Source: Nitrospirota bacterium (GTDB taxonomy: Bacteria > Nitrospirota > Thermodesulfovibrionia > UBA6902). Taken from it: a DNA stretch of 47,512 nt. The stretch lies in the NCBI GenBank assembly GCA_016214845.1, contig JACRMS010000017.1:1-47512 (forward strand), read 5' to 3'. Made by a program: the position numbers and the translations under genes. The notes below the pieces were generated by a model. The model saw nothing but the letters and a program-made list of their open reading frames with translations, did no database searches and was not told where the DNA came from. Numbering within the stretch: position 1 is the stretch's first letter; every line of letters begins with the position of its first letter. This document shows positions 3,633 to 47,048 of the stretch, one piece after another.

Positions 3633-4962
3633 ATTGCTCGACTCACTTTTTAATCCCAAATCCATAGCGTTGATCGGAGCGGCCCATTCTGAAAAGAAGC
3701 TGGGCGGTATAGTTCTGAAGAACCTGCTCCAATACAAGGGGAAGGTCTATCCCGTCAATCCAAAATACTCCGAGCTGATGGGAGTGAAGGCTTACCCGTC
3801 TGTTGAAGAGATAGACAGCACGATCGATCTCGCTATTATAATGAGGCCCGCCTCCGAAGTCGTTGAGCTCCTGAAACAGCTCAGTGGCAGGACAAAGATA
3901 GTCATCGTGGTCACGTCGGGTTTTTCAGAGGTCGGCGCATCTCAACTTCAGAATGAAGTCAAAGAGGCGGGCAGGGAGGCAGGGGTCAGGATACTTGGCC
4001 CTAATTGCATGGGCCTTTACAACCCTTATGCCGGCATCGATACATTTTTCCTCCCGACAGACAGACTACTCAGGCCCGGAAAGGGCAACGTGGCCATGGT
4101 CTCACAAAGCGGCGCGGTGATAAGCTGCCTCATGAGCGCGATGAAGTCAGCGAACGTGGGCGTGTCAAAGGCGGTCACTTACGGCAACGCGGTGGACATA
4201 GACGAATCCGACCTGTTTGAATATCTTGCAAACGACGCGCAGACAGATGTTGTGATCTCATATATAGAGTCTGTAGGCGATGGAAGAAAGTTCATCGACA
4301 GGGCAAAGATGGTGTCGAAGCGAAAACCTCTCATCATACTCAAGGCCGGAAAAAGTCAGACTGGTCAGACCGCAGCCTTCTCGCACACGGGCAGGCTCGC
4401 AGGAAGGTATGAGGTCTTCCGCTCCATCCTGAAGCAGTTTGGCATCAGAGAGGCCGCGAATATGGATGACTTCATTGATTCGGCAAAGGCGGTCTCTTAT
4501 CAAAGGCCATCAAGAGGCAGCCGCGTTTTGATCGTTACCAACGGCGGCGGCTCCGGCGTGTTGGCCACTGATGAGTGCATGAGGCAGGAGTTCGACGTTA
4601 TGAAATTGCCGAAGCAAAAGGCAGCGGAATTGCGAGAGATGTTCCCTCCTTTTTACGGCATCAACAATCCTTTGGACCTTACCGGACAGGTGACGGATGA
4701 GGACTATTTAACCGTCCTGAATAAATTGAGGGATGATTATGACGGCTTTCTTATCATCGCATTGCCGAATGTCCTTGGAATAACAGAAAAGCTCGCGCCG
4801 CTGCTTGCGGAATTTAAAGACAGTTATAAAAAACCCGTAGTCGTGCACGTTGCCGAAAGCGGAATAACCGCAAAGCTCGTTGCGCTCATTGAGCAGACAA
4901 GAGTTCCTGTGTATCCTTCGCCTGAAAGAGCGGTAAGGGCCTTGAAGGCGTTGTTGGATTAG
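3625..4962 (+). CDS. acdA: acetyl-CoA synthetase (ADP-forming), alpha subunit
   Basis: This subunit has the CoA-binding and succinyl-CoA-ligase-like domains of the NDP-forming acyl-CoA synthetases, which convert acetyl-CoA, ADP and phosphate to acetate, CoA and ATP. Evidence is the N-terminal Rossmann start (FNPKSIALIGAA), the conserved GPNCMG near 125-130, SQSGA near 160-164, and AAFSHTGRLAG with the phospho-accepting His at 254. The 445 residues fit the stand-alone alpha subunit; the beta subunit follows 7 bases later. The GTG start overlaps the end of pdhC by 8 bases, implying translational coupling to E2. A TTG at 3634 is an alternative start. Its place after E2 suggests it consumes the acetyl-CoA made by the complex. 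Confidence 0.88.
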   Translation: MLKLLDSLFNPKSIALIGAAHSEKKLGGIVLKNLLQYKGKVYPVNPKYSELMGVKAYPSVEEIDSTIDLAIIMRPASEVVELLKQLSGRTKIVIVVTSGFSEVGASQLQNEVKEAGREAGVRILGPNCMGLYNPYAGIDTFFLPTDRLLRPGKGNVAMVSQSGAVISCLMSAMKSANVGVSKAVTYGNAVDIDESDLFEYLANDAQTDVVISYIESVGDGRKFIDRAKMVSKRKPLIILKAGKSQTGQTAAFSHTGRLAGRYEVFRSILKQFGIREAANMDDFIDSAKAVSYQRPSRGSRVLIVTNGGGSGVLATDECMRQEFDVMKLPKQKAAELREMFPPFYGINNPLDLTGQVTDEDYLTVLNKLRDDYDGFLIIALPNVLGITEKLAPLLAEFKDSYKKPVVVHVAESGITAKLVALIEQTRVPVYPSPERAVRALKALLD

Positions 4963-7572: not shown

Positions 7573-8838
7573 ATGGATAACCCGTCCTTTATAAAATTAC
7601 TGGAAGACATAGTGAAGGGGTCGCGCATCCCGGATTCCTTTACCGGCCTTTCCGCTGAAGAGGAAATACTTGCAATAAGGATCCATGGAGAGCTTGAGAA
7701 GGCAAAGGCCTATAAAAATTACTCCGGGATATATCTTCAGGCGTTAAGCGGCACGGAAAAATTTTATGACATGTCCATAAGGGCGCTTTCAGCCCTGATC
7801 AAGGTCGGCAAGATCGAAGAGGAAGTAAAGGACGTTTATACGTTATGCAAAAAAACACTTGAGATATTCGCCCAGGAGCTTGAATTTGAAAACTGCTCGA
7901 TCATGCTGAAAGACACCGACAACGAACACCTGATATTAATGGCGGGCAGGGGAAGGGGCGACAAGTATATCTCGAAGAACTGGAAAAAAGGCAGAAGGAT
8001 AAAAATAGGCGAAGGTGTTGCCGGCAAGGTCGCGGAGACGGGAGAATATATTTTTATATCTGATGTTCAGAATGATCCCCGTTTCAAACAATTCAACATG
8101 AGCGTTGAGATAACATCTTTATTGTCCATACCCCTGAAGAGCGATGAAAAAATATTGGGCGTGATTAACTTCAGCCACCCGCTGCTGGAGGCCTTCGACG
8201 AAAACAAGATCAACCTTATGGTCATCCTTTCCAATTTCGTTTCTCAGATGATAATGCTTGCAATGCTTCATAACAAGATAGCCCACTGGAATGATGACCT
8301 GAGAAAACAGATAGAAGACAAAACATCCGAGCTGACGGAAAAGAACAGGAAGCTCGAAAAATTAGCGGTCCAGGACCCGCTTACCGGCCTGTACAACAGG
8401 CGGTTTTTCTTCACAAGGCTTGAAGAGGAATTCTCAAGGTCCGCGAGGTATAACGAACATTTTTCCCTGCTCCTGATAGACCTCGATAATCTGAAGCCTG
8501 TCAACGATACCTACGGGCATCTGGCCGGTGACAAGGTCATCAGATCGTTTGCAAAATCCTTAAAGGGCATAGGGAGAAAAGGCGACGTTATCGCGCGCAT
8601 CGGCGGCGATGAATTCGGATACATCCTGCTTGAGACCGATCAAAAAGGCGCGCACGATTTTGCGGAGCGCATACATGAAAGTTTCGCCAAAGTAAATCAC
8701 GGTCCTGTGAAACCGACACCCACCGTCAGCATCGGCATCGCCCACTCCATCACAAAAAAATTCAAAAAACATCAGGAAGTCTTTAAAGCCGCAGATGATG
8801 ACCTGTACAAATCGAAGAAGAAAAAGAAGATAAAGTAA
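7573..8838 (+). CDS. diguanylate cyclase with N-terminal GAF domain
   Basis: The 421-residue cytoplasmic protein has a helical N-terminus (about 1-70), a GAF sensor domain (about 80-225, with IGEGVAGKVAETGEYIFI), a coiled linker (about 236-262) and a GGDEF domain (about 263-421). The active site GGDEF is intact (ARIGGDEFGY) and an RxxD inhibitory site (RKGD) lies five residues upstream, so it should make c-di-GMP and be feedback-inhibited. There is no transmembrane segment. It is probably co-transcribed with the HDOD gene (11-base gap) and is convergent with coaE, whose stop is only 9 bases away. Confidence 0.92.
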   Translation: MDNPSFIKLLEDIVKGSRIPDSFTGLSAEEEILAIRIHGELEKAKAYKNYSGIYLQALSGTEKFYDMSIRALSALIKVGKIEEEVKDVYTLCKKTLEIFAQELEFENCSIMLKDTDNEHLILMAGRGRGDKYISKNWKKGRRIKIGEGVAGKVAETGEYIFISDVQNDPRFKQFNMSVEITSLLSIPLKSDEKILGVINFSHPLLEAFDENKINLMVILSNFVSQMIMLAMLHNKIAHWNDDLRKQIEDKTSELTEKNRKLEKLAVQDPLTGLYNRRFFFTRLEEEFSRSARYNEHFSLLLIDLDNLKPVNDTYGHLAGDKVIRSFAKSLKGIGRKGDVIARIGGDEFGYILLETDQKGAHDFAERIHESFAKVNHGPVKPTPTVSIGIAHSITKKFKKHQEVFKAADDDLYKSKKKKKIK

Positions 8839-9498: not shown

Positions 9499-9527
9499 TT
9501 GACAAACAGTCTTAAGGGGAGTAATTT
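9499..9527 (+). promoter_or_regulatory. promoter of the riboswitch-kimA transcript
   Basis: A perfect TTGACA (9499-9504) lies 17 bases before TAATTT (9522-9527), a weak -10. The predicted start falls immediately before the riboswitch aptamer. Confidence 0.5.
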
Positions 9528-9535
9528 AAAGTCAC

Positions 9536-9667
9536 ATAGCAGCCGAAGTCCTCTCAAAGAGGGGACGCGGGGGACCCAATAAAATTGGGGCGTATTCCAG
9601 AAATGGATAGGGCACTTCCAGGCCCGAGCCCGTCAGCTAACCTCGCAGGCATTTGGAAGGGCATAGG
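9536..9667 (+). ncRNA. cyclic di-AMP riboswitch (ydaO/yuaA type)
   Basis: The leader shows the conserved blocks of the ydaO-type aptamer in order: AGCCGAAG (9541-9548), a short stem, GGGGACCCAAT (9570-9580) with ATTGGGGCGTAT after it, AGGGCACTTCC (9609-9619), then GCCCGTCAGCTAACCTCG (9628-9645) with GCAGGC, and the closing GGAAGG. These match what I recall of the Bacillus and Thermoanaerobacter ydaO RNAs. An intrinsic terminator follows directly, so c-di-AMP binding should stop transcription of the potassium importer downstream. This is the classic target of the class: ydaO itself was renamed kimA. Confidence 0.93.
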
Positions 9668-9676
9668 TCTGAAATG

Positions 9677-9703
9677 AAAACCGCTGCCTGGCGGTTTTTT
9701 TAT
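9677..9703 (+). terminator. riboswitch-controlled intrinsic terminator
   Basis: AAAACCGC (9677-9684) and GCGGTTTT (9691-9698) pair around TGCCTG, and the run of T continues from 9695 to 9701. It sits between the aptamer and the kimA ribosome site, as expected for an OFF switch acting by premature termination. Confidence 0.9.
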
Positions 9704-9732
9704 TTCCCTCCGCTTGCCCCGAAGGAGGAGAA

Positions 9733-11544
9733 ATGTCTCTCAAAAACATTCTCATCGGACAGCCGATCGAGACCATCAGGGAAAAGCACGAGCGCCTGAC
9801 AAAGACGACCGGGCTGGCGGTATTTTCATCAGACGCCATGTCGTCCGTGGCTTATGCGACAGAAGAAATACTCTTTGCCCTCGTACTTGCCGGGACCGCG
9901 ATGCTTCATTATTCGATGCCTGTCGCAGTTGGAATCTCAGCGCTTATCGCAATAGTCGCCATGTCATATTTCCAAACGATCCATGCTTATCCAAACGGCG
10001 GCGGCGCGTATATAGTTGCCAAAGACAACCTCGGCACATATCCCGGTCTTGTCGCAGGCGCTTCTTTGCTTATCGATTATGTGCTGACCGTCACAGTCAG
10101 CGTTTCAGCGGGTATCGCGGCGATAACATCAGCCTTCCCGGCGCTCCAGAATCATAAAATCGCATTATGCATTTTTGCCATCGCCCTCGTAATGATCGGC
10201 AACCTGCGCGGGGTCAGGGAATCAGGAAAGATATTTTCCCTTCCTGCATATATTTTTATAGGTTCGCTGTTTATTCTGATAGGGATGGGCATGTCGAAGT
10301 ATTTCGGTATGCCTCATCCGCCTGCGCCTGAATTCAGAGAAGCGTCTGCAAATATATTGCCGGTCTTTCTTATCCTGAGGGCGTTTGCTTCAGGCTGCGC
10401 TGCGCTTACCGGCATAGAGGCTGTGGCAAACGGCGTTCAGGCGTTTAAGCCGCCGGAGTCAAGGAATGCCGGTGTCACTCTTATCTGGATGGCCTTGATA
10501 CTCGGCTCGCTTTTCATGGGAATAACTTTTCTTGCGGACCACTACGGAATAATGCCGAATGAGAACGAGACCGTGCTGTCACAGGTGGCGAGGGCGGTGT
10601 TCTCGAAGGGCATAATTTATTATGTAATACAGTTTTCAACGTCTTTAATACTTATCCTTGCAGCCAACACTTCATTCGCGGATTTCCCAAGGCTTTCATC
10701 CATCATGGCATCCGACCGTTACATGCCGAGACAGTTAAGCAGCAGGGGAGACAAGTTAGTCTTCTCAAACGGAATACTCATCCTCGGGTTCTTTTCTATC
10801 ATTCTTATCGTGATCTTCAGAGGCGATACACACGCTCTTATACCGCTTTATGCCGTCGGGGTTTTTACGGCATTTACCCTTTCACAGGCCGGGATGGTCA
10901 GGCACTGGATCAAGTTCAAAGGTAAGGGATGGATTAAGAACGTCATAATAAATGGCCTGGGCACGTTTACAACTGCAGTCGTCCTTGTTATCATTGCTTC
11001 AACAAAATTCATGCATGGGGCATGGATCGTGATAATCGCGATACCCGGTCTCGTTTTTTTGACACATAAAATACATCAGCATTATATTTCCGTTGCCGAA
11101 CAGCTTTCTCTTGAAGGCGTTGGCGCAGTAAAGGAATACACCCACCATTCGGTTGTGATCCCCGTGTCGGGAGTTCAGAAGGCAGTGCTGAATGCGATTA
11201 AATATGCCAAGGCGCTGTCAGATGATGTGGTCGCGGTTTATATTTGCCTTGATACCGCGGAGATGGAGAGAGTGCAGCTTAAATGGAAGATTTACGGCAT
11301 GGGAGTCCCGCTTGTGGTCCTGCACTCACCATACCGTTCTGTGATTGAGCCTCTGATGGATTACATAGACGGGATTCGTGAACGATATAAAGACGGCATC
11401 ATTACCGTCATACTGCCGGAGTTTGTGCCGCAGAAGTGGTGGCATCACCTCCTCCATAACCAGACAGCGCTTCTGCTGAAAGGCATTATTCTCTTTAAGA
11501 AAGGAGTGGTGTCTACGAGCGTGCCTCTACACCTGAAGGGGTGA
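9733..11544 (+). CDS. kimA: KimA-type high-affinity potassium importer (APC superfamily)
   Basis: The 603-residue protein is an APC-superfamily transporter with about twelve hydrophobic segments between residues 25 and 440 and a soluble C-terminal domain (about 450-603). Family signs are LTKTTGLAVFSSDAMSSVAY near 22-41, PNGGGAYIVAK near 86-96 and the C-terminal HLLHNQTALLLKG. Bacillus KimA has almost the same length and architecture and imports K+ with protons. The upstream c-di-AMP riboswitch supports potassium rather than amino acids as substrate. The ribosome site AAGGAGGAG is strong. No c-di-AMP synthase is in the window. A generic label would be amino acid permease; I prefer KimA because of length, C-terminal domain and riboswitch. 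Confidence 0.88.
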   Translation: MSLKNILIGQPIETIREKHERLTKTTGLAVFSSDAMSSVAYATEEILFALVLAGTAMLHYSMPVAVGISALIAIVAMSYFQTIHAYPNGGGAYIVAKDNLGTYPGLVAGASLLIDYVLTVTVSVSAGIAAITSAFPALQNHKIALCIFAIALVMIGNLRGVRESGKIFSLPAYIFIGSLFILIGMGMSKYFGMPHPPAPEFREASANILPVFLILRAFASGCAALTGIEAVANGVQAFKPPESRNAGVTLIWMALILGSLFMGITFLADHYGIMPNENETVLSQVARAVFSKGIIYYVIQFSTSLILILAANTSFADFPRLSSIMASDRYMPRQLSSRGDKLVFSNGILILGFFSIILIVIFRGDTHALIPLYAVGVFTAFTLSQAGMVRHWIKFKGKGWIKNVIINGLGTFTTAVVLVIIASTKFMHGAWIVIIAIPGLVFLTHKIHQHYISVAEQLSLEGVGAVKEYTHHSVVIPVSGVQKAVLNAIKYAKALSDDVVAVYICLDTAEMERVQLKWKIYGMGVPLVVLHSPYRSVIEPLMDYIDGIRERYKDGIITVILPEFVPQKWWHHLLHNQTALLLKGIILFKKGVVSTSVPLHLKG

Positions 11545-28218: not shown

Positions 28219-30189
28219 GTGCAGGCAAAAGAAACTAAACTACAAGACATCATTGAAGGGACAAAACAGTACGTTATTCCGCTTTTTCAGCGGACGTACA
28301 GTTGGACAAATAAAGAGTGGGAAATTTTATGGAAAGACCTTATTGAACTTTGTGAAGCTGATAACCCACGGACACATTTCATTGGCTCAATTGTAAATAT
28401 GCCGACAGTTTCAGTCCCAGAGGGCGTTGCAAAGTTCTTATTAATTGACGGGCAACAACGGTTGACTACAATCTTTATACTACTGACTCTCTTGAGAAAT
28501 AAAGCCAGAGAGAGCCAACGCCAAGAATTTGCTGAGGAGATCAATAATACTTTGCTTGTCAACCCATACAAAAAGGATAATGACTTTTTTAAGCTAATGC
28601 CTACGCAGGTAGACAGAGAAACATACAAGAACCTTATTAACGGAAAACCAAATGAAGCCGACAATCAACTTACAAGGGCGTATTCATTTTTTGACAAGAA
28701 ACTCAAGCAGCTTCAACTTGAGCACGAGAAGCTAAAGAAAATAATCACGAGTTATTTTTCTGTTGTAAGCATTGTTCTTGATGCAGATGATAACCCATAT
28801 TTGGTTTTTGAAAGCCTGAACGCAAAAGGAAGACCGCTGACACAGGCTGACCTAATACGAAACTACTTCTTTATGCGCATTCACGTAGATAAACAGGAAG
28901 CAGTTTACAATGACTATTGGCAGCCCATGCAGACTGGCCTCAATGATAATCTTACGGAGTACATCAGACACTTTTTAATGAGAGGTGGCAGCATCGTAAA
29001 GCAATCTGACGTTTATTATGCTCTCAAAGAAAATGTGTCAACGACTAATGCAATTGACTACCTAACGGAGTTGCAGCGATTTTCGGTTTATTACCAGCGT
29101 CTGATTTATCCAGAATTTGAACCCGAAGAAGACTTGCAAAAGTATTTCCGCAGATTCAACAGAATTGAAGTAACAACGGCGTATCCGTTTCTTCTGAATT
29201 TGTATGGAATCTATAGTGAGAACAACATCAGCAAGGGTGACTTCATTAATATTCTAAAGATACTGGAGAATTATCTCATTCGTAGGTTTGTCTGCAATAT
29301 ACCAACGAATCAACTCAATAAAATATTCCCGACAGTTTATCCTCAATTGCTTGCCAAGTATCCCGGCAACTTTGTTGAAGGTGTTAAAACAATCTTCCAG
29401 AGCAAGGGCTATCCAAAAGACAATGAATTTTCCTTACGGTTTAAAGAAACAAAGTTTTATGGCGCCGGTGATCGGCAAATAAAAACCAAACTAATTCTTG
29501 AAACCCTTGAAGAAAACTATGCCCATAAAGAAGCTGTGCCGTTTGACAACTTAACCATTGAGCATATAATGCCGCAAACTCTCTCTGAGTGGTGGCAGAA
29601 TCACTTAGGCACAGAGTGGGAAGAAACACATGAGTTGTTTTTACATACGATTGGCAATTTAACTCTGACAGCCTACAATACCGAGCTATCAAACGACGAT
29701 TTCGGAACCAAGAAACAGACATACAACGACAGCCATTTAGAACTTAACAAATATTTCACAAATTTACCCTCATGGACTCGGACAGAAATTGAGAGACGAG
29801 CAGAAGCATTATCAAAACAAGCCCTTGAAATATGGAGCTACTTCGGGCAGGAAGACTCTTCACAATCTGAATTACAGGAAGTTACTGGTACAACTCCAAC
29901 AGGCCTAAGAATATTAGGACAGCAGTTTCGAGTCCAATCGTGGAGGGATGTTTTAGAGCAAACTCTAAACACTGTTGCTGACCTTGAACCAGAGAAGTTT
30001 GATGTGATCGCTCATAATTTCCCTCGCTACTTAGGCAAGGATAAGAATAAATTCAGGGCAATCCGACAGCTACAAAACGATTATTTTGTTGAAGTTAATT
30101 TATCAGCTCAAAGCATACAGAAATTTTGTTATCAGGCAATGGAAACAATAGAACTTACTTCTGAAGAATGGAATGTAACAATAACATAA
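28219..30189 (+). CDS. DUF262/DUF1524 (GmrSD-like) modification-dependent nuclease
   Basis: The 656-residue protein joins a DUF262 domain (about 10-220) to a DUF1524 HNH-like domain (about 430-520) plus a C-terminal domain (about 555-656). DUF262 shows IPLFQRTYSWTNKEW (18-32) and the nucleotide-hydrolysis motif LLIDGQQRLTT (77-87). DUF1524 shows TIEHIMPQTLSEWW and TIGNLTLTAYNTELSN, the His-Asn-type nuclease core. Such fusions are type IV restriction enzymes that cut glucosylated, hydroxymethylated or phosphorothioated phage DNA (GmrSD, BrxU and SspE relatives). No modification methylase or dnd/ssp gene is nearby, so it acts alone. GTG start; GGAG lies 10 bases upstream. The gene is AT-rich and flanked by toxin-antitoxin debris. 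Confidence 0.85.
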   Translation: MQAKETKLQDIIEGTKQYVIPLFQRTYSWTNKEWEILWKDLIELCEADNPRTHFIGSIVNMPTVSVPEGVAKFLLIDGQQRLTTIFILLTLLRNKARESQRQEFAEEINNTLLVNPYKKDNDFFKLMPTQVDRETYKNLINGKPNEADNQLTRAYSFFDKKLKQLQLEHEKLKKIITSYFSVVSIVLDADDNPYLVFESLNAKGRPLTQADLIRNYFFMRIHVDKQEAVYNDYWQPMQTGLNDNLTEYIRHFLMRGGSIVKQSDVYYALKENVSTTNAIDYLTELQRFSVYYQRLIYPEFEPEEDLQKYFRRFNRIEVTTAYPFLLNLYGIYSENNISKGDFINILKILENYLIRRFVCNIPTNQLNKIFPTVYPQLLAKYPGNFVEGVKTIFQSKGYPKDNEFSLRFKETKFYGAGDRQIKTKLILETLEENYAHKEAVPFDNLTIEHIMPQTLSEWWQNHLGTEWEETHELFLHTIGNLTLTAYNTELSNDDFGTKKQTYNDSHLELNKYFTNLPSWTRTEIERRAEALSKQALEIWSYFGQEDSSQSELQEVTGTTPTGLRILGQQFRVQSWRDVLEQTLNTVADLEPEKFDVIAHNFPRYLGKDKNKFRAIRQLQNDYFVEVNLSAQSIQKFCYQAMETIELTSEEWNVTIT

Positions 30190-31318: not shown

Positions 31319-32491
31319 CTACTTCATGACCTGGTTCAGTTCAAATATCGGCAGGAGGACTGCCACGACAATAAATCCGACCAGCAGCCCCATTGTCAGG
31401 ATGAGGACCGGCTCTAATAATCCGATAGCGCCCCGGAGTTTTCTGTCAAATTCAGCTTCATAAGATTCCGCCGTCTTCATCAGGACCTCAGGCAGTCTGC
31501 CTGTCTGCTCTCCGGTGGAGATGATCTGCAAAATGGTCGGAGGAAATCCTTCAAGGCTGCTTGAGAGCTTGGCGCCCTGCGATATTACTTCCTGCGCGGA
31601 CATGATTTTATTTTCCAGAACTACATTGCCTGTTGCCTTTGCGGTCAGCTTCATCGCGTTTAATATCGGCAGCCCGCCTGACAGGAGAAACCCCATTGTC
31701 ATGGTGAAGCGAAGCATGTAAAGCCCCATGAGGATGCCTGTCGGTTCTTTAAGGAGCAGGCCGTCGATCAGCTCCTTTTTATTTTTCCTGACCCACCTGT
31801 ATAACATCACGACTCCGGCTGCAAGCAGCAGGAGCAGCCACCAGAAATTTTTAAAGACAGAGCTTATCCAGATGAGCACGACAGTGATGAACGGCAGGGA
31901 GGCTGAGGTGTCCTCGAATATCTTTGTTATCTTCGGTATGACAAACGTGAAAAGGAAGATCAGGATCATTACGCTCACGCACGCCATAAAAATGGGATAT
32001 ATGAGGGCTGTCTGGACTTTGCTTTTTACATTGTTTTCGTTTTCGAGATAGTCGGCGAGCTTCATCAGGACCTCCGTCAACTTCCCGCTGCTTTCTCCAG
32101 CTGTGACCATGCCTGTATAAAAATCAGGAAAGATGTCGGGATGCGCCTGCATGGCCCGCGCGAGCGACGCTCCGCCCGACAGCCGGTCTTTTATGTCAAT
32201 CAAAAGATTTTTCCAGGCGCCTTTTTGCTCTGACGCTAATGAGCCTATAGCATCTATAAGGGTCACGCCTGATGAAAGCAGGGTTGAAAGCCTTCTTGTG
32301 ATGCTCGCGAGTACTGCGGGAGACAATCTTTTAAACAGAAGTTTTTGCCGGGAGACTGATTCGGAAATCTCTTTAGGGAAGATGCCTTTTGTTTTGATCT
32401 TTAATGCGGCGTCTTTTTGACCGTCGGCCTCGATAGCGCCGTCTATCACGGTCCCGTTGGCGTCGTATCCTCTGTATTTAAAAATTGGCAT
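31319..32491 (-). CDS. gspF: type II secretion system inner-membrane platform protein GspF
   Basis: GspF is the inner-membrane platform that links the GspE motor to the pseudopilus. The 390-residue protein starts MPIFKYRGYDANGTVIDGAI and contains two T2SSF repeats, the first about 65-190 with LSTLLSSGVTLIDAI and GESSGKLTEVL, the second about 265-390 with LSGGLPILNAM and GEQTGRLPEVL. Three hydrophobic segments lie near 165-190, 210-232 and 360-384. It is the last gene of the cluster: no gspG follows, although a pseudopilin gene normally does. The next 190 bases are toxin-antitoxin debris. Confidence 0.94.
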   Translation of the reverse strand: MPIFKYRGYDANGTVIDGAIEADGQKDAALKIKTKGIFPKEISESVSRQKLLFKRLSPAVLASITRRLSTLLSSGVTLIDAIGSLASEQKGAWKNLLIDIKDRLSGGASLARAMQAHPDIFPDFYTGMVTAGESSGKLTEVLMKLADYLENENNVKSKVQTALIYPIFMACVSVMILIFLFTFVIPKITKIFEDTSASLPFITVVLIWISSVFKNFWWLLLLLAAGVVMLYRWVRKNKKELIDGLLLKEPTGILMGLYMLRFTMTMGFLLSGGLPILNAMKLTAKATGNVVLENKIMSAQEVISQGAKLSSSLEGFPPTILQIISTGEQTGRLPEVLMKTAESYEAEFDRKLRGAIGLLEPVLILTMGLLVGFIVVAVLLPIFELNQVMK

Positions 32492-32527
32492 GATTTTAAA
32501 AATAGAAGTTAGGAAGTTGGGAAGATT

Positions 32528-32585
32528 TGAAGTTGAGAAAAGGCAAGAAATCTCATCCTCTTATCTTCTTAATCTCTCAACTTCA
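32528..32585. repeat. quasi-palindromic spacer between gspE and gspF
   Basis: TGAAGTTGAGA (32528-32538) and TCTCAACTTCA (32575-32585) are perfect 11-base arms, and the flanks repeat GAAGTTGGGAAG-like words. It has no coding capacity. Confidence 0.65.
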
Positions 32586-32589
32586 TCCA

Positions 32590-34110
32590 TTATGCTTCCG
32601 CATCCTTCTGCGTTACTCTCAGGACTTCCTCTACTGTTGTAACACCTTTTATGATCTTCTCGACTGCGTTTTTCTGTAAGGGTTTAAACCCGGACTTTAC
32701 TGTTGCCGTTCTCCTGATCACCTGAGCGTCTTTTCTTTCCACGATCATTGTTCTTATATCAGGGGTGATCTCAAGCAGCTCGTAAATCCCGGCCCTGCCG
32801 ATGTAACCTTTGCCGAGGCATTTATCACAGCCTTTGCCGCGATAAAGGACCTTAGGCGCAGGCTCGATCTCAAGATAACTTATTTCTTCCTTTGACGGTG
32901 CATAGGATTCTTTGCAGTGAGGGCAGATCACCCTCACCAGCCGCTGTGCCAGCACGCATACAAGCGACGATGCCACGAGGAACGGCTCTATCCCCATGTC
33001 GATGAGTCTCGTTAATGCGCTCGGCGCATCATTTGTATGCAGAGTGCTGAGAACGAGATGGCCCGTCAGCGAGGCGTGCACAGCGATCTCGGCGGTCTCA
33101 AGGTCCCTGATCTCACCAACCATCATGATGTCCGGGTCCTGCCTCAAAATAGACCGCAGTCCAGCGGCAAACGTCAATCCTATTTTTGGATTTACCTGCA
33201 TCTGCCCGATGCCGCTTAACTGGTATTCAACCGGGTCTTCAACCGTGATGATGTTTCTCTCCTCGGTATTGAGCTTTAGAAGTGAGGCATAAAGCGTTGT
33301 GGTCTTGCCTGAGCCTGTGGGGCCGGTCACGAGGATTATTCCGTTCGGCCTGGACAAGGCCTCTTTGAATACACGTAATATCTCGTCCTCCAGTCCAAGC
33401 TTTTCAAGGCTCAATACGCCCGCGTGCCTGTCAAGCAATCTGAGAACGGCCCTTTCACCAAGAGCAGTCGGTATTATTGAAACCCTGATGTCGATATCTT
33501 TACCGCCTACAAGGAGCCTTATCCTTCCATCCTGCGGGAGCCTTTTCTCCGCGATGTCGAGTCCGGCGATTATCTTTATCCTTGATATGAGAGCGTCCTG
33601 GATTATTCTGGGGGGGCTCAGCACTTTGCGCAATATTCCATCCACCCTGAACCTGACATCGAGTCCCTTTTCATACGGCTCTACATGTATATCGCTTGCC
33701 TTTTCCTTGGCAGCCTCCATAAGCATGGCATTGAGCAATCGTATTATCGGGGCCTCTTCAGTTAGCTCAAGCAGGTCCTGCGGCGATTCAAACTCCGTGG
33801 CGACCATGGACAGGTCTTCGCCTTTGATATCTCCCATCACTTCATTTACCCTGCTGGTCTGGCTGTAGATGCGGTTAATGGCGTCGATAATTACCTTCTC
33901 GTCCGCCTGAACGGGATGGGGCTTCAGATTCAGGCCCCTTGCCATGTCCCTGAGCGCGAAGATTCCGCGGTTATCGGCAACAACGCCTAACAGCTCGCCG
34001 TCCTCTTTCCGCATAGGCAGGAACACATTTCCCTTTACAAATGAAAGGGGGAGGTCCTGTAAAAGTGAGAACTCCATTTCATCGTCTTTTATGCTGTCGA
34101 TTGTTTCCAT
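32590..34110 (-). CDS. gspE: type II secretion system ATPase GspE
   Basis: GspE is the cytoplasmic hexameric motor of the secretion system. The 506-residue protein has an N-terminal adaptor domain (about 1-115), then the ATPase with Walker A GPTGSGKTTT near 265-274, the Asp box and the Walker B region MMVGEIRDLETAEI near 326-339, and a tetra-Cys zinc site (CPHC near 398 and CDKC near 429). This zinc domain is typical of GspE and PilB. The gene has no clear ribosome site. Confidence 0.95.
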   Translation of the reverse strand: METIDSIKDDEMEFSLLQDLPLSFVKGNVFLPMRKEDGELLGVVADNRGIFALRDMARGLNLKPHPVQADEKVIIDAINRIYSQTSRVNEVMGDIKGEDLSMVATEFESPQDLLELTEEAPIIRLLNAMLMEAAKEKASDIHVEPYEKGLDVRFRVDGILRKVLSPPRIIQDALISRIKIIAGLDIAEKRLPQDGRIRLLVGGKDIDIRVSIIPTALGERAVLRLLDRHAGVLSLEKLGLEDEILRVFKEALSRPNGIILVTGPTGSGKTTTLYASLLKLNTEERNIITVEDPVEYQLSGIGQMQVNPKIGLTFAAGLRSILRQDPDIMMVGEIRDLETAEIAVHASLTGHLVLSTLHTNDAPSALTRLIDMGIEPFLVASSLVCVLAQRLVRVICPHCKESYAPSKEEISYLEIEPAPKVLYRGKGCDKCLGKGYIGRAGIYELLEITPDIRTMIVERKDAQVIRRTATVKSGFKPLQKNAVEKIIKGVTTVEEVLRVTQKDAEA

Positions 34111-34129
34111 ATTTAAAGAGTGACAGTGT

Positions 34130-34191
34130 CAGTGATTAGTGTCAGTTCACTATTGCTGACTCTGTTAGTGGCACTTACACTGTCTCATATT
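34130..34191. repeat. quasi-palindromic spacer between gspD and gspE
   Basis: GACAGTGTCAGTG and a complementary CACTTACACTGTC enclose repeats of AGTGTCAG-like words, giving a long imperfect hairpin. It extends into the last codons of gspD on the minus strand. Confidence 0.5.
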
Positions 34192-36605
34192 TTCTTTCTT
34201 ACCAGCAGCGGTTTTACGTTCAACTTCTTTTTAATCTCTTTCGCAATGAGCAGGCCCTGTTCTTTACTCATGATGCCGGGGACCCTTACTTTGTTGAAAT
34301 TATTTTCCTCAACGATGAATGCTTCCGGGTAATCGCCTTTTAATTTTTCAAGCACGCCCTGTGCATTTCTAATGTCTTTCCATGAGCCTATCTGGATAAA
34401 ATATTTGCCTGACGGGGTTGTTTCCGGCGCGGGTTTCTCAGTATTTAAAGTTTTTTTTTCCGTTGGCGCGGGTGTATCAGCCGGGGGAACTGCGATTTCC
34501 GTGTTGTTTTCGGTTTGAGACTTGGCAGGCGGAACAGCAGCGTTATCGATAACAGGTTCAATAGTTTGTTCCGGAACAGTTTTTTGTTCCTGGTCTTGCG
34601 GGGCGGCTTTGCTCTCTTGAGGGACAGCGGGTTTCTCTTTCTGCATTGTGTCCGAGTCCAGCGGCGGGTTAGTTATCTTGATCCTGTAATTCGGTTCCGC
34701 GTAGAGGACTTCAGGCATGGAAGAAAATTCTTTTAAGGCGCCTTCCACTTCCTGCCCGGATTTCAACTGGATATGGTAGACATTTATATCTTTTAAATAA
34801 GCTATAACCGACGCCCTCTTTTGCGCAATGATCTCCAGCGCCCTTTCTTTTGAAACATCGTCTTTAAACCGTACCAACAGTTCACCTACATGATAAAATT
34901 TTTCCCTCTCCACAAATGTCTTATGCTTCTCATCCGTTATCTTTATCAGTTGGTCCGAGTCCTTGACAACATGCGGTGACAGGAATACCAGAAGGTTCGT
35001 CTTGTTTTTTGTCACACTTGTTGTCTTGAAAAGCCAGCCCAATACAGGTATGTCGCCAAGCAACGGCATCTTTGTTACGGACTCCTCTTCTTTTTCCTGC
35101 ATCAGGCCGCTGATGACAACCGTGCGTCCGTCCCTGACAACAACGGAAGTCTTTGTTGAGCGCTTGGTGGTTGTGGGGCCCACTGTTGTCAGGACAGCTT
35201 CAGAGGTATCTTTGACCGCCGAGATCTCCTGCTTGATATCAAGCCTGACATAATCCCCCTCTGTTATCTGGGGAGTGATCTTGAGCATTATGCCGACGTC
35301 CTGTCTCTCTATGGAGTTTAAAACCGTATTGGTGGTAGTTACGTCGCGTTCCCTTTTTGAAATAAACGGCACGTTTTCTCCGACTAATATTTCCGCCTCT
35401 TCATTGTCGGATGTCAGTATCTGTGGAGTTGAGAGGACATTTACGGCGTCTTTGAATTCGTTCAGGTTGAAGAGGGCCGCGAAACCGGGGGCTGTAAGGG
35501 TTGTGGATGTAGCGGCCCCGCTTGAATCTATGGAAGAGATGGGGATGTCGATGAAGTTGCCCATTCCGCCGGCAGTAAATCCCGTTAAACCGTTAACGAT
35601 CGAAACTAGGGAGCTTGAACTCAAATTCCCAAAGCCGCCGATAACGATCGGTTCACCGTTATGGCTTACCGTGGCCCTCCATTTTGATCCGAGCTCCTTT
35701 AGCTTGTCGATCGAGGCCTCAACAATCATGGCCTCAACGTACACCTGCTTTCTTCTCCTGTCGAGGGTCTTTATGACCTGCGCGATATTTTCATACTCGG
35801 AAGGGGGCGCGACAACGACAAGTGAGTTGGTCGATTTGTCGGGCGTTACGCTTAATGTCGGGACCGAATCAGGAGACTTCTGTTTGTCCCTCTGTGAAGC
35901 CTTGTAGGCTGTCTGGAGGTTTTTCAATATTCCTTCAAGCACCTTTGCAAGAGTCACCGCGTCCGCGTTTTCGAGAAAGTAGACACTCACCTTTGCGGTT
36001 TCTTCCTGGGCCGAGGGGAGGTCGATCAATTTCAGAATGGACATTACTTTTTCCATATTCAGGGCGGAATCCACAACAAGCAGGAAATTGCCCGGGCCGA
36101 AGGCGGAGATATGACCGTCTCTTGAAACCACCGGACGAAGGAACTGTATAGCGTCATCAGCCTTGATGTTCTGGGTCGGAATGAGTTTTGTGATGTACCC
36201 TTCATTAACGGGGATCTTTTCGTCCGTAGATAGCTGGCCTTCCTCCTTTGCCTGCGAAGCCAGGATGATCTTGTACGTCTTGGGGCCGGACGGGATTATG
36301 GTGTAGCCTTTCAGGCCCAATACGGAAGTAAAGAGCGAGAAGGATTCGTCAATGGAAAGCTTTGCCGGCGCTATGATGGTGATCTTTCCTTTGACCTTGT
36401 CGTCAAAGATGAAGTTGTTGCCTGTTATCTCGCTGATGAATTTTATTATCGTCGGTATGTCGACATCAATGAAATTGAAGGCGATGTTCTCATCTGACTT
36501 CCTGTTTTCGGAAAAGGAGAGTCCGGGTGTGAGCGAAAAGGTAAATACAAGCAGACAGATCAAACACAGGGTCCTGACAACTTTCATTTTACCGGTATCT
36601 TTCAT
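34185..36605 (-). CDS. gspD: type II secretion secretin GspD with C-terminal subtilase-prodomain-like and SPOR domains
   Basis: GspD forms the outer-membrane channel. The 806-residue protein has a signal peptide (to about 31), an N0 domain (40-120, IAFNFIDVDIPTIIKFISEI), N1 and N2 domains (about 135-200 and 203-285), and the secretin domain (about 288-550) with VPFISKRERD and LLGDIPVLGWLFKTTS. Unusually, three further parts follow. Residues 573-643 (GELLVRFKDDVSKERALEII to SSMPEVLYAEPNYR) resemble the prodomain of subtilisin-like proteases. Residues 644-731 are a Pro/Glu/Thr-rich linker. Residues 732-804 are a SPOR domain (GKYFIQIGSWKDIRNAQGVL), which in other proteins binds denuded peptidoglycan. 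ATG at residue 7 is an alternative start. Confidence 0.92.
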   Translation of the reverse strand: MKDTGKMKVVRTLCLICLLVFTFSLTPGLSFSENRKSDENIAFNFIDVDIPTIIKFISEITGNNFIFDDKVKGKITIIAPAKLSIDESFSLFTSVLGLKGYTIIPSGPKTYKIILASQAKEEGQLSTDEKIPVNEGYITKLIPTQNIKADDAIQFLRPVVSRDGHISAFGPGNFLLVVDSALNMEKVMSILKLIDLPSAQEETAKVSVYFLENADAVTLAKVLEGILKNLQTAYKASQRDKQKSPDSVPTLSVTPDKSTNSLVVVAPPSEYENIAQVIKTLDRRRKQVYVEAMIVEASIDKLKELGSKWRATVSHNGEPIVIGGFGNLSSSSLVSIVNGLTGFTAGGMGNFIDIPISSIDSSGAATSTTLTAPGFAALFNLNEFKDAVNVLSTPQILTSDNEEAEILVGENVPFISKRERDVTTTNTVLNSIERQDVGIMLKITPQITEGDYVRLDIKQEISAVKDTSEAVLTTVGPTTTKRSTKTSVVVRDGRTVVISGLMQEKEEESVTKMPLLGDIPVLGWLFKTTSVTKNKTNLLVFLSPHVVKDSDQLIKITDEKHKTFVEREKFYHVGELLVRFKDDVSKERALEIIAQKRASVIAYLKDINVYHIQLKSGQEVEGALKEFSSMPEVLYAEPNYRIKITNPPLDSDTMQKEKPAVPQESKAAPQDQEQKTVPEQTIEPVIDNAAVPPAKSQTENNTEIAVPPADTPAPTEKKTLNTEKPAPETTPSGKYFIQIGSWKDIRNAQGVLEKLKGDYPEAFIVEENNFNKVRVPGIMSKEQGLLIAKEIKKKLNVKPLLVRKKI

Positions 36606-36649
36606 TTTTCACTTTGAATTTTACAATTTATCTTAATGTTAATCAATAA

Positions 36650-37570
36650 CTACCTTATGCGATAAGTCATCGACATGTTTTGATCGTTCCTGATTATGTC
36701 AAGATTAACGCTGTTCATCCCCTTCAATGCCGTCATTGCCTGCATCGCGACTTCGGCGTTTGAGATCTCAAGGCCGTTTATCCTTAACAATATGTCGCCG
36801 TTCCTTAACCCAAGACTTTGATAAATGCCCCCCGGCACTACCTCGCTTATTTTGAATCCCGACTGTTTACCGTCCTTGATATTTGGCAGCAGTCTCGCCT
36901 CGGTCAGTATCTTTTCGGGATTCTCAAGAGATTGCTGAACCCTCCGGCTGTCGAGGATGTATTCCTTCTCGCCGACCTTTTTGGCAAAGGATGGCCGCTG
37001 AGATTCAGTAGACTGCTCCGGAGCTGACGCTGAAGCCGACGGCAAATCCTGCAGCGGGATGGCGCTGATAACAGAGTTTTGTTCTATTTCAATGGACGAC
37101 TTTTCTATTTTTATTAAGGTCCCGTAATTAAAGACCTCAGTGCCGTATCTGAAGACCTCCTGCTTGCCCGGAGATTGCACCTTGTCCTCAAAGATCGCGT
37201 AACTCAGATTTTTGGGGCCGACCACGGTCCCGACGAGGATGAGGTTTGACAAAGGACTGGGCTGGGCCGCATTCTCCTCGGAGACCTCAATTGGGCTGAG
37301 TGTCATGGGCGGGCCAAAAGGGTTTTTTTCAAGGATGGGCGAATAATACATGAGAGGTTTTTTGCTTGCTGCTTTTTGCACGGCCATTTTACTTTCGGAA
37401 GCCGCCGGGCGCGGTTGTTTCTTTGAAAGCGTGGTGCTGACGATACTGCGGACGAGCAGGAGGCTTGCAATTAGAATAAGCGCCCCGAGAAAATAGTTGA
37501 GCAGGTAAAGCTTCTTAAATGAAAATTCAAACATTTTTATTAGCTTAAACTTTTGCCGGTTCGCTGTCAA
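36650..37570 (-). CDS. gspC: type II secretion system protein GspC with PDZ domain
   Basis: GspC links the inner-membrane platform to GspD. The 306-residue protein has one transmembrane segment (about 18-42, LLNYFLGALILIASLLLV), a homology region (about 80-170, with NPFGPP and LILVGTVVG) and a C-terminal PDZ domain (about 205-306, with ISEVVPGGIYQSLGLRNGD). Short linker sequences are Ser/Ala/Pro-rich. It precedes gspD by 44 bases and follows the phosphorylase gene by 33 bases, so all five minus-strand genes may be one transcript. Confidence 0.9.
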   Translation of the reverse strand: MTANRQKFKLIKMFEFSFKKLYLLNYFLGALILIASLLLVRSIVSTTLSKKQPRPAASESKMAVQKAASKKPLMYYSPILEKNPFGPPMTLSPIEVSEENAAQPSPLSNLILVGTVVGPKNLSYAIFEDKVQSPGKQEVFRYGTEVFNYGTLIKIEKSSIEIEQNSVISAIPLQDLPSASASAPEQSTESQRPSFAKKVGEKEYILDSRRVQQSLENPEKILTEARLLPNIKDGKQSGFKISEVVPGGIYQSLGLRNGDILLRINGLEISNAEVAMQAMTALKGMNSVNLDIIRNDQNMSMTYRIR

Positions 37571-46112: not shown

Positions 46113-47048
46113 ATGGCAAGGAAGCCGAGGATAGAGTTTGAAGGAGCGTTTTACCACGTAATAATCCGAGGAAACCAGAGGCAGAAGATATTCAGGGACG
46201 AAAAAGATTACAGGAAATATCTTGAGATACTTTCCGGCTACAAGAAACAGTATCACTATCGTCTTTTTGCATACGTATTGATGAATAACCATGTGCATTT
46301 GCTGTTGGAGACAAAGGATATCCCGCTTTCAAAAATACAGCAGGGGATTAATCAGCGATACACAATGTATTTCAACCGGAAATATAAAACAGTGGGGCAT
46401 CTCTTCCAGGGGAGGTACAAAGCAATTCTTTGCGATAAGGATAGATATTTACTTTCATTGACAAAGTACATACATTACAATCCGGTGCGGGCGAAGATGA
46501 CGAAATTGCCTGAAGATTATAAGTGGAGCAGTCACCGGAATTATTCTGGAAGAATTAAGGATGACCTGATTGAAGTCGATCAGGTTCTACGCATGTTTTC
46601 GGAAGACAAGACACAGGCGAGGCGTCTCTATCGGGAGTTCATGGGTGAAGGCATAAATATCAAAAAAGAAGATGTCTACAGGACCGTGGACCAAAGGATA
46701 CTTGGGGATGAAAGTTTTGTAGAAAAAATATCAGATAAAACGGAAGAAAGAATTAAAGAAAAGAGAAAGAAACATGAACACACTTTAGAAGGAATAACAA
46801 AAGCGGTAGAGACGGTCCTGGGGATAACAATCAAACAGATGAGGGAAAAAGGCAAAGACCGGGAAATATCTCTTGGAAGAAAGCTGATGAGTCTCGCAGC
46901 AAATGAGTATGGCTACAAGGGCAGAGATGTGTCGAGATATCTCAGGAAAGACCCATCGATTATAACGAGATATTTAAAGGAGAGAAACAATCTGAAAAAG
47001 GCAGCGGAAACGGTGTTTAAGGTGTTATGCAATAACAAATGTCAATAG
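46113..47048 (+). CDS. RAYT / IS200-like Y1 transposase with DnaA-like C-terminal domain
   Basis: The 311-residue protein has the Y1 HUH endonuclease domain (about 1-130): RIEFEGAFYHVIIRGNQRQK, the HUH motif in LMNNHVHLLLE, and the segment KYIHYNPVRA with a candidate nucleophile Tyr. A C-terminal domain (about 225-305; EGITKAVETVLGITIKQMRE and KGRDVSRYLRKDPSIITRYL) resembles the DNA-binding domain of DnaA and is typical of RAYTs. It may mobilise the repeat unit around it. It appears intact. No ribosome site is seen. Confidence 0.9.
   Translation: MARKPRIEFEGAFYHVIIRGNQRQKIFRDEKDYRKYLEILSGYKKQYHYRLFAYVLMNNHVHLLLETKDIPLSKIQQGINQRYTMYFNRKYKTVGHLFQGRYKAILCDKDRYLLSLTKYIHYNPVRAKMTKLPEDYKWSSHRNYSGRIKDDLIEVDQVLRMFSEDKTQARRLYREFMGEGINIKKEDVYRTVDQRILGDESFVEKISDKTEERIKEKRKKHEHTLEGITKAVETVLGITIKQMREKGKDREISLGRKLMSLAANEYGYKGRDVSRYLRKDPSIITRYLKERNNLKKAAETVFKVLCNNKCQ

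Follow-up and report, generated by a model that had tools for sequence, protein, structure and literature searches.

A ydaO-class riboswitch for c-di-AMP precedes the gene for a KimA potassium importer in a Nitrospirota bacterium, and we consider it highly probable (roughly 0.87) that it acts as a transcriptional OFF switch on this importer. The stretch of DNA analyzed (47,512 nucleotides, referred to hereafter as the window) is one contig of a 3.45 Mb draft genome that is 96% complete, and all elements of the riboswitch locus described below lie on its forward strand. In the proposed mechanism, high internal K+ would raise the level of c-di-AMP, made by CdaA (and perhaps also by a DacZ-like enzyme); binding of c-di-AMP to the nascent leader RNA would then let the terminator at 9676–9701 form and leave kimA untranscribed, with polymerase reading through into kimA once K+ and c-di-AMP drop. 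The same messenger would probably also block KimA already in the membrane, since the protein keeps its K+ site and most of its c-di-AMP pocket. We infer ligand binding, the direction of the switch and K+ transport; the OFF direction would follow from validated relatives (PMC6488665), from the logic of K+ supply, and from related leaders whose ribosome binding site lies in the pseudoknot itself.

Architecture of the kimA leader

The preliminary description had placed a ydaO aptamer in front of kimA, an assignment that the covariance model confirms: positions 9531–9666 match the c-di-AMP (ydaO/yuaA) family RF00379 over the whole model (1–134 of 134; cmscan against Rfam) at 90.8 bits, compared with a gathering threshold of 38 (E 4.2e-20). 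Across the 47.5 kb window, no other Rfam family passes its gathering threshold, and the aptamer is present as a single copy in the 3.45 Mb genome. Aligned with its relatives (20 aptamers in all), the helices display double changes in 10 of 28 pairs. A pseudoknot between the apical loop and the 3′ tail defines the class; here, the loop strand CUUCCA (9615–9620) pairs with UGGAAG (9654–9659), and this interaction is paired in 90.8% of alignment cells over the 20 sequences, with none of 500 shuffles performing as well (double changes within the pseudoknot come from one sequence, i.e., one cell, per pair).

Upstream of the aptamer, TTGACA (9499–9504) and TAATTT (9522–9527), separated by a 17-base spacer, form a probable promoter, whose predicted transcription start (~9534) falls at the edge of the aptamer; the left border of the locus as originally drawn, 9499, is the first base of the TTGACA box. 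A strict promoter scan missed this pair, the −10 box matching at only 3 of 6 positions. Among related leaders (99 collected, 89 of them distinct, with 86 from RF00379 searches and three, L023, L025, and L026, from a KimA search only), however, TTGAC occurs within 60 bases 5′ of the aptamer in 79 of the 89, vs 4.7 in letter shuffles.

The expression platform adjoins the aptamer. An intrinsic terminator at 9676–9701 comprises a stem (9676–9699) of 10 pairs, eight Watson–Crick and two G–U, closed by a loop of four, and a T run (the U tract of the transcript) to 9701. The existence of this terminator had been correctly anticipated; the epithet “perfect” was slightly generous, given the two G–U pairs. 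Between 9300 and 9800 there are three terminator-like sites where shuffles lead one to expect 0.6, in favor of a genuine terminator. Across 33 aligned leaders, pairing of this stem is preserved in 93.6% of cells, although pairs with a double change revealed no covariation beyond that of controls. Terminator-like hairpins were detected in 75 of the 89 leaders by a loose home-made scan run without a shuffle control, several of these hits (e.g., L020, L021, L024, L079, and L116) being doubtful.

Two candidates for an antiterminator strand, the 5′ strand of P1 (GCAGC) and the GGGCA tail (9659–9663, whose complements lie in the terminator loop region and in UGCCC at 9715–9719), outdo shuffled sequences in pairing to the terminator arm in 38 and 40 of 45 leaders, respectively. 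For the tail together with its linker, pairing to the terminator arm and loop reaches −11.95 kcal/mol, compared with −11.40 when tails are swapped between leaders and −9.47 when they are shuffled, the leader's own tail outperforming swapped ones in 31 of 45 cases. A single universal antiterminator found no clear support, neither candidate being found in all leaders and arm pairing hardly shifting with the aptamer held. When aptamer and pseudoknot are held in folding, mean pairing of the terminator arm falls only from 0.59 to 0.56 (lower in 12 of 17 leaders), and for this reason no clear exclusive antiterminator emerges from these 17 leaders.

A different output device is found in four relatives (L009, L070, L105, and L107), in which the Shine–Dalgarno sequence is contained in the pseudoknot strand and the transporter start codon follows 2–9 bases after the purine run; the folded aptamer would hide this site, as fits an OFF switch. 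In three further leaders (L020, L021, and L024), a short ORF of 25–28 codons starts at the pseudoknot strand and overlaps the kimA start by ~11 bases, and in L099 a 27-codon ORF from the same strand reaches kup; these short leader ORFs suggest translational coupling with the transporter.

KimA and the c-di-AMP genes of the host

The 603-residue ORF at 9733–11544 encodes a KimA-type K+/H+ symporter, as the preliminary description had proposed for the gene 3′ of the riboswitch. A phmmer search of the PDB returned one significant match, Bacillus subtilis KimA (6s3k; E 1.1e-169 over residues 2–602), such that the homology is full-length and includes the cytosolic domain, with 280 of 599 aligned residues identical (47%). 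Pfam offers only the general amino acid permease model AA_permease_2 for this protein, and NCBIfam gave no match. Going by the ligand residues named in the KimA–c-di-AMP structure paper (PMC10284832), all four K+ ligands (D36, Y43, T230, and Y377; here D34, Y41, and the equivalents of T230 and Y377) are identical, and six of seven c-di-AMP pocket residues are kept (R337, V457, P479, H579, N580, and Q581), the seventh, S582, being replaced by the Thr that is also found in Staphylococcus aureus KimA. Y118, N237, and F568 are likewise identical to B. subtilis KimA. Changes in or near the pocket comprise F565L (at a pocket-delimiting position), I569V, R587K, and W592F in addition to S582T. RNA-based and protein-based sensing of a single messenger would meet in this one gene.

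The host is predicted to make c-di-AMP. Two proteins of its genome exceed the Pfam cut-off for the DAC domain (PF02457), and both contain DGA and RHR, the catalytic motifs of diadenylate cyclases. The first (257 residues, with a CdaA_N domain) is a CdaA equivalog (TIGR00159, 258.5 bits against a cut-off of 188.8) followed by a YbbR protein and then by a glmM-like ORF recognized by eye. The second, on another contig than the window, is a 296-residue protein with DAC and DacZ_P domains, an architecture best known from archaea; its best NCBIfam match is DacZ, at a score below the model cut-off, and second DAC genes of similar score are found in many relatives. A PgpH-type 7TM-HD protein and one TrkA_C protein are also encoded. 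The window also encodes a type II secretion system with its secretin (31319–37570), in keeping with an outer membrane and so with a diderm cell. With the covariance score far above threshold and two DAC proteins in the genome, neither of the conditions named beforehand as refuting the earlier proposal applies, and c-di-AMP signaling of K+ status in a Gram-negative cell is supported.

That proposal had also pointed to neighboring c-di-GMP enzymes. At 7573–8838 there is indeed a GAF-GGDEF gene, preceded by an HDOD gene, but it is a single gene with no operon link to kimA, from which coaE on the other strand separates it; a functional connection to c-di-GMP, for which one nearby GGDEF gene in its own transcription unit would be the only basis, was set aside. 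Elsewhere in the window are a GmrSD-type restriction endonuclease gene (28219–30189; Pfam GmrSD_N and GmrSD_C) and an IS200-like transposase-family gene (46113–47048; Y1_Tnp).

Distribution of aptamer, cyclase, and KimA pocket

Among 61 related genomes, RF00379 is found in 11, KimA in 7, and a DAC protein in 59. All seven KimA genomes have the aptamer, and all 11 aptamer genomes have a DAC protein; in the remaining four, the aptamer precedes kup (three) or the gene of an APC permease (one). A survey of 395 Nitrospirota genomes returned DAC in 220, KimA (E ≤ 1e-100) in 163, and RF00379 in at least 74, the last figure being a lower bound set by stricter filters and the scoring of at most eight candidates per genome. 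A DAC protein accompanies the aptamer in 67 of the 74, and the seven exceptions possibly reflect gaps in draft genomes. KimA genomes contain the aptamer in 40 of 51 cases where a DAC protein is present, vs 1 of 112 where it is absent; most of these 112 belong to one family and so do not represent 112 independent cases.

The genes that follow the 89 distinct leaders are those of known K+ importers in 80 instances (KimA 44, Kup 28, KdpA 6, and TrkH 2). Seven leaders precede APC-type permeases (six of one kind, exemplified by L064, plus L006), and two have no assigned next gene (L106, at a contig end, and L112). The six kdpA loci divide into four from Nitrospirota (L071, L075, L101, and L104) and two from Actinobacteria (L025 and L026). 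In the four Nitrospirota loci a small ORF (64 to ~108 residues) lies between aptamer and kdpA, with a similar one in L112, and several of these share an ATSPxPEEVKPG-like stretch.

The nearest named KimA loci are themselves from Nitrospirota: one in a Thermodesulfovibrionia MAG is 89% identical, and those of several “Nitrospirae” MAGs are 69–81% identical. A locus from the same genus (L019) presents an unusual pattern in that its flanking DNA is mostly 85–97% identical to the window (one 100-base bin, 77%) and its promoter and aptamer 92–96%, with the kimA reading frame only 55–83% identical to 9733–11544 and sharp borders at the gene ends. Judged from these identities, the riboswitch seems to have stayed in place while the kimA coding sequence beneath it was exchanged. 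The L019 kimA frame meets a stop ~14 codons before the usual end, at about position 4765.

Loss of the cyclase is accompanied by changes in the KimA pocket. We compared 36 KimA genomes (36 of 46 loci, with partial, frameshifted, or otherwise unused loci left out), of which 25 have a DAC protein and 18 have RF00379. Nine KimAs in this set carry Arg at position 582, all of them with His337, and their nine genomes have neither DAC nor RF00379. KimA occurs without the aptamer in 11 DAC genomes, and the eight of these that were aligned display Arg337 (six) or Gln337 (two), each with Thr582. In a wider set of 61 Nitrospirota KimAs (that of the window included; a hand-picked spread of families rather than a random sample), all 29 proteins from DAC genomes have Thr582 (27 with Arg337, two with Gln337), whereas 31 of the 32 from genomes without DAC have Arg582 (29 with His337, two with Arg337), the last combining Lys337 with Thr582. 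Twenty-nine alignment columns separate the two sets, nine of them falling at 335–339 or 568–582. The Arg582 proteins form one clade (support 100/99) in a tree of the 61, and the pocket change thus counts as one event; two other cyclase-less KimAs (L027 and L154) keep Thr582. The cyclase-less, Nitrospira-type lineage so delineated has the pocket changes R337H, S582R, and F568I and no aptamer.

We favor, with some reserve, a broader reading in which the K+ importers of Nitrospirota (KimA, Kup, Kdp, and Trk) form a regulon sharing the c-di-AMP aptamer as sensor but not a single output device: the output would be either a terminator or a Shine–Dalgarno sequence in the pseudoknot strand, sometimes via a short leader ORF overlapping the transporter start. 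In this reading, RNA sensor, protein sensor, and messenger would have been lost or altered together in the cyclase-less lineage. The contrast with these Nitrospira relatives offers a ready natural experiment on the KimA residues that are important for c-di-AMP.

Alternative readings and relation to known systems

The leader could instead act mainly on translation, with a CCUCC–GGAGG hairpin and GGGCA–UGCCC pairing hiding or exposing the ribosome binding site and the terminator serving as a second layer. Its elements are present in the window, where CCUCC (9707–9711), UGCCC (9715–9719), and the Shine–Dalgarno sequence AAGGAGG (9722–9728) could form a possible masking hairpin spanning 9707–9728. 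The order CCUCC, UGCCC, GGAGG between terminator and start is kept in many relatives, GCCC occurs in the spacer between terminator and Shine–Dalgarno in 38 of 45 leaders (vs 16.5 in shuffles), and relatives that have no terminator keep CCUCC and the Shine–Dalgarno sequence or place the latter in the pseudoknot strand. Against this, the Shine–Dalgarno sequence is paired little more than in shuffles over 48 leaders (0.85 vs 0.77), its pairing in the window itself is no better than in shuffles (0.83 vs 0.85), and a leader's own tail pairs with its spacer no better than a swapped one. Most of this pairing is accounted for by base composition alone, and we did not retain the hairpin as a proven part of the switch; mainly translational control appears unlikely.

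Far less probable still is a permease whose substrate is an amino acid or another solute rather than K+, as the Pfam assignment and the APC permeases downstream of some related aptamers might suggest: the match to KimA runs end to end with every K+ ligand conserved, and Kup, Kdp, and Trk genes follow the leaders of sister loci. We give equally little credence to an ON switch or to the sensing of another nucleotide such as ATP. A claim of ATP sensing by ydaO exists, cited in PMC7266159, but the same paper gives picomolar affinity for c-di-AMP in validated members, validated members terminate on binding according to PMC6488665, and the Shine–Dalgarno sequences in the four pseudoknot-strand leaders would be concealed, not exposed, by aptamer folding.

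The preliminary description had implied novelty in an occurrence outside Firmicutes. This does not hold, as PMC6488665 already cites predictions of such riboswitches from five phyla other than Firmicutes, in the leaders of ktr, trk, kdp, and kup, and the Nitrospirota examples share with these their position in the leaders of K+ transporter genes. A search of open-licence papers found none, judged by title, on a c-di-AMP riboswitch circuit in Nitrospirota. PMC6488665 also reports that in Bacillus thuringiensis c-di-AMP promotes termination before kdp, an OFF switch established by experiment. That kdpFABC riboswitch shares with ours the succession of an aptamer and an intrinsic terminator before a K+ importer, and differs in controlling Kdp, the importer in the window being KimA. 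Riboswitch-controlled kdp is described there as seemingly restricted to Bacillales, in contrast to the Nitrospirota and Actinobacteria kdpA loci above.

The closest counterpart is the kimA (ydaO) riboswitch of B. subtilis and its KimA, with which the window shares the aptamer class, the gene controlled, and the K+ and most c-di-AMP pocket residues, and the host shares the cdaA–cdaR–glmM gene order and a PgpH-type protein. What differs is the Gram-negative Nitrospirota host, a KimA of 47% identity, and the DacZ-like second cyclase. The Nitrospirota riboswitch–kimA pair is the same circuit as in Bacillus and no new kind of system; with it, the range of a well-understood K+ circuit comes to include a Gram-negative phylum.
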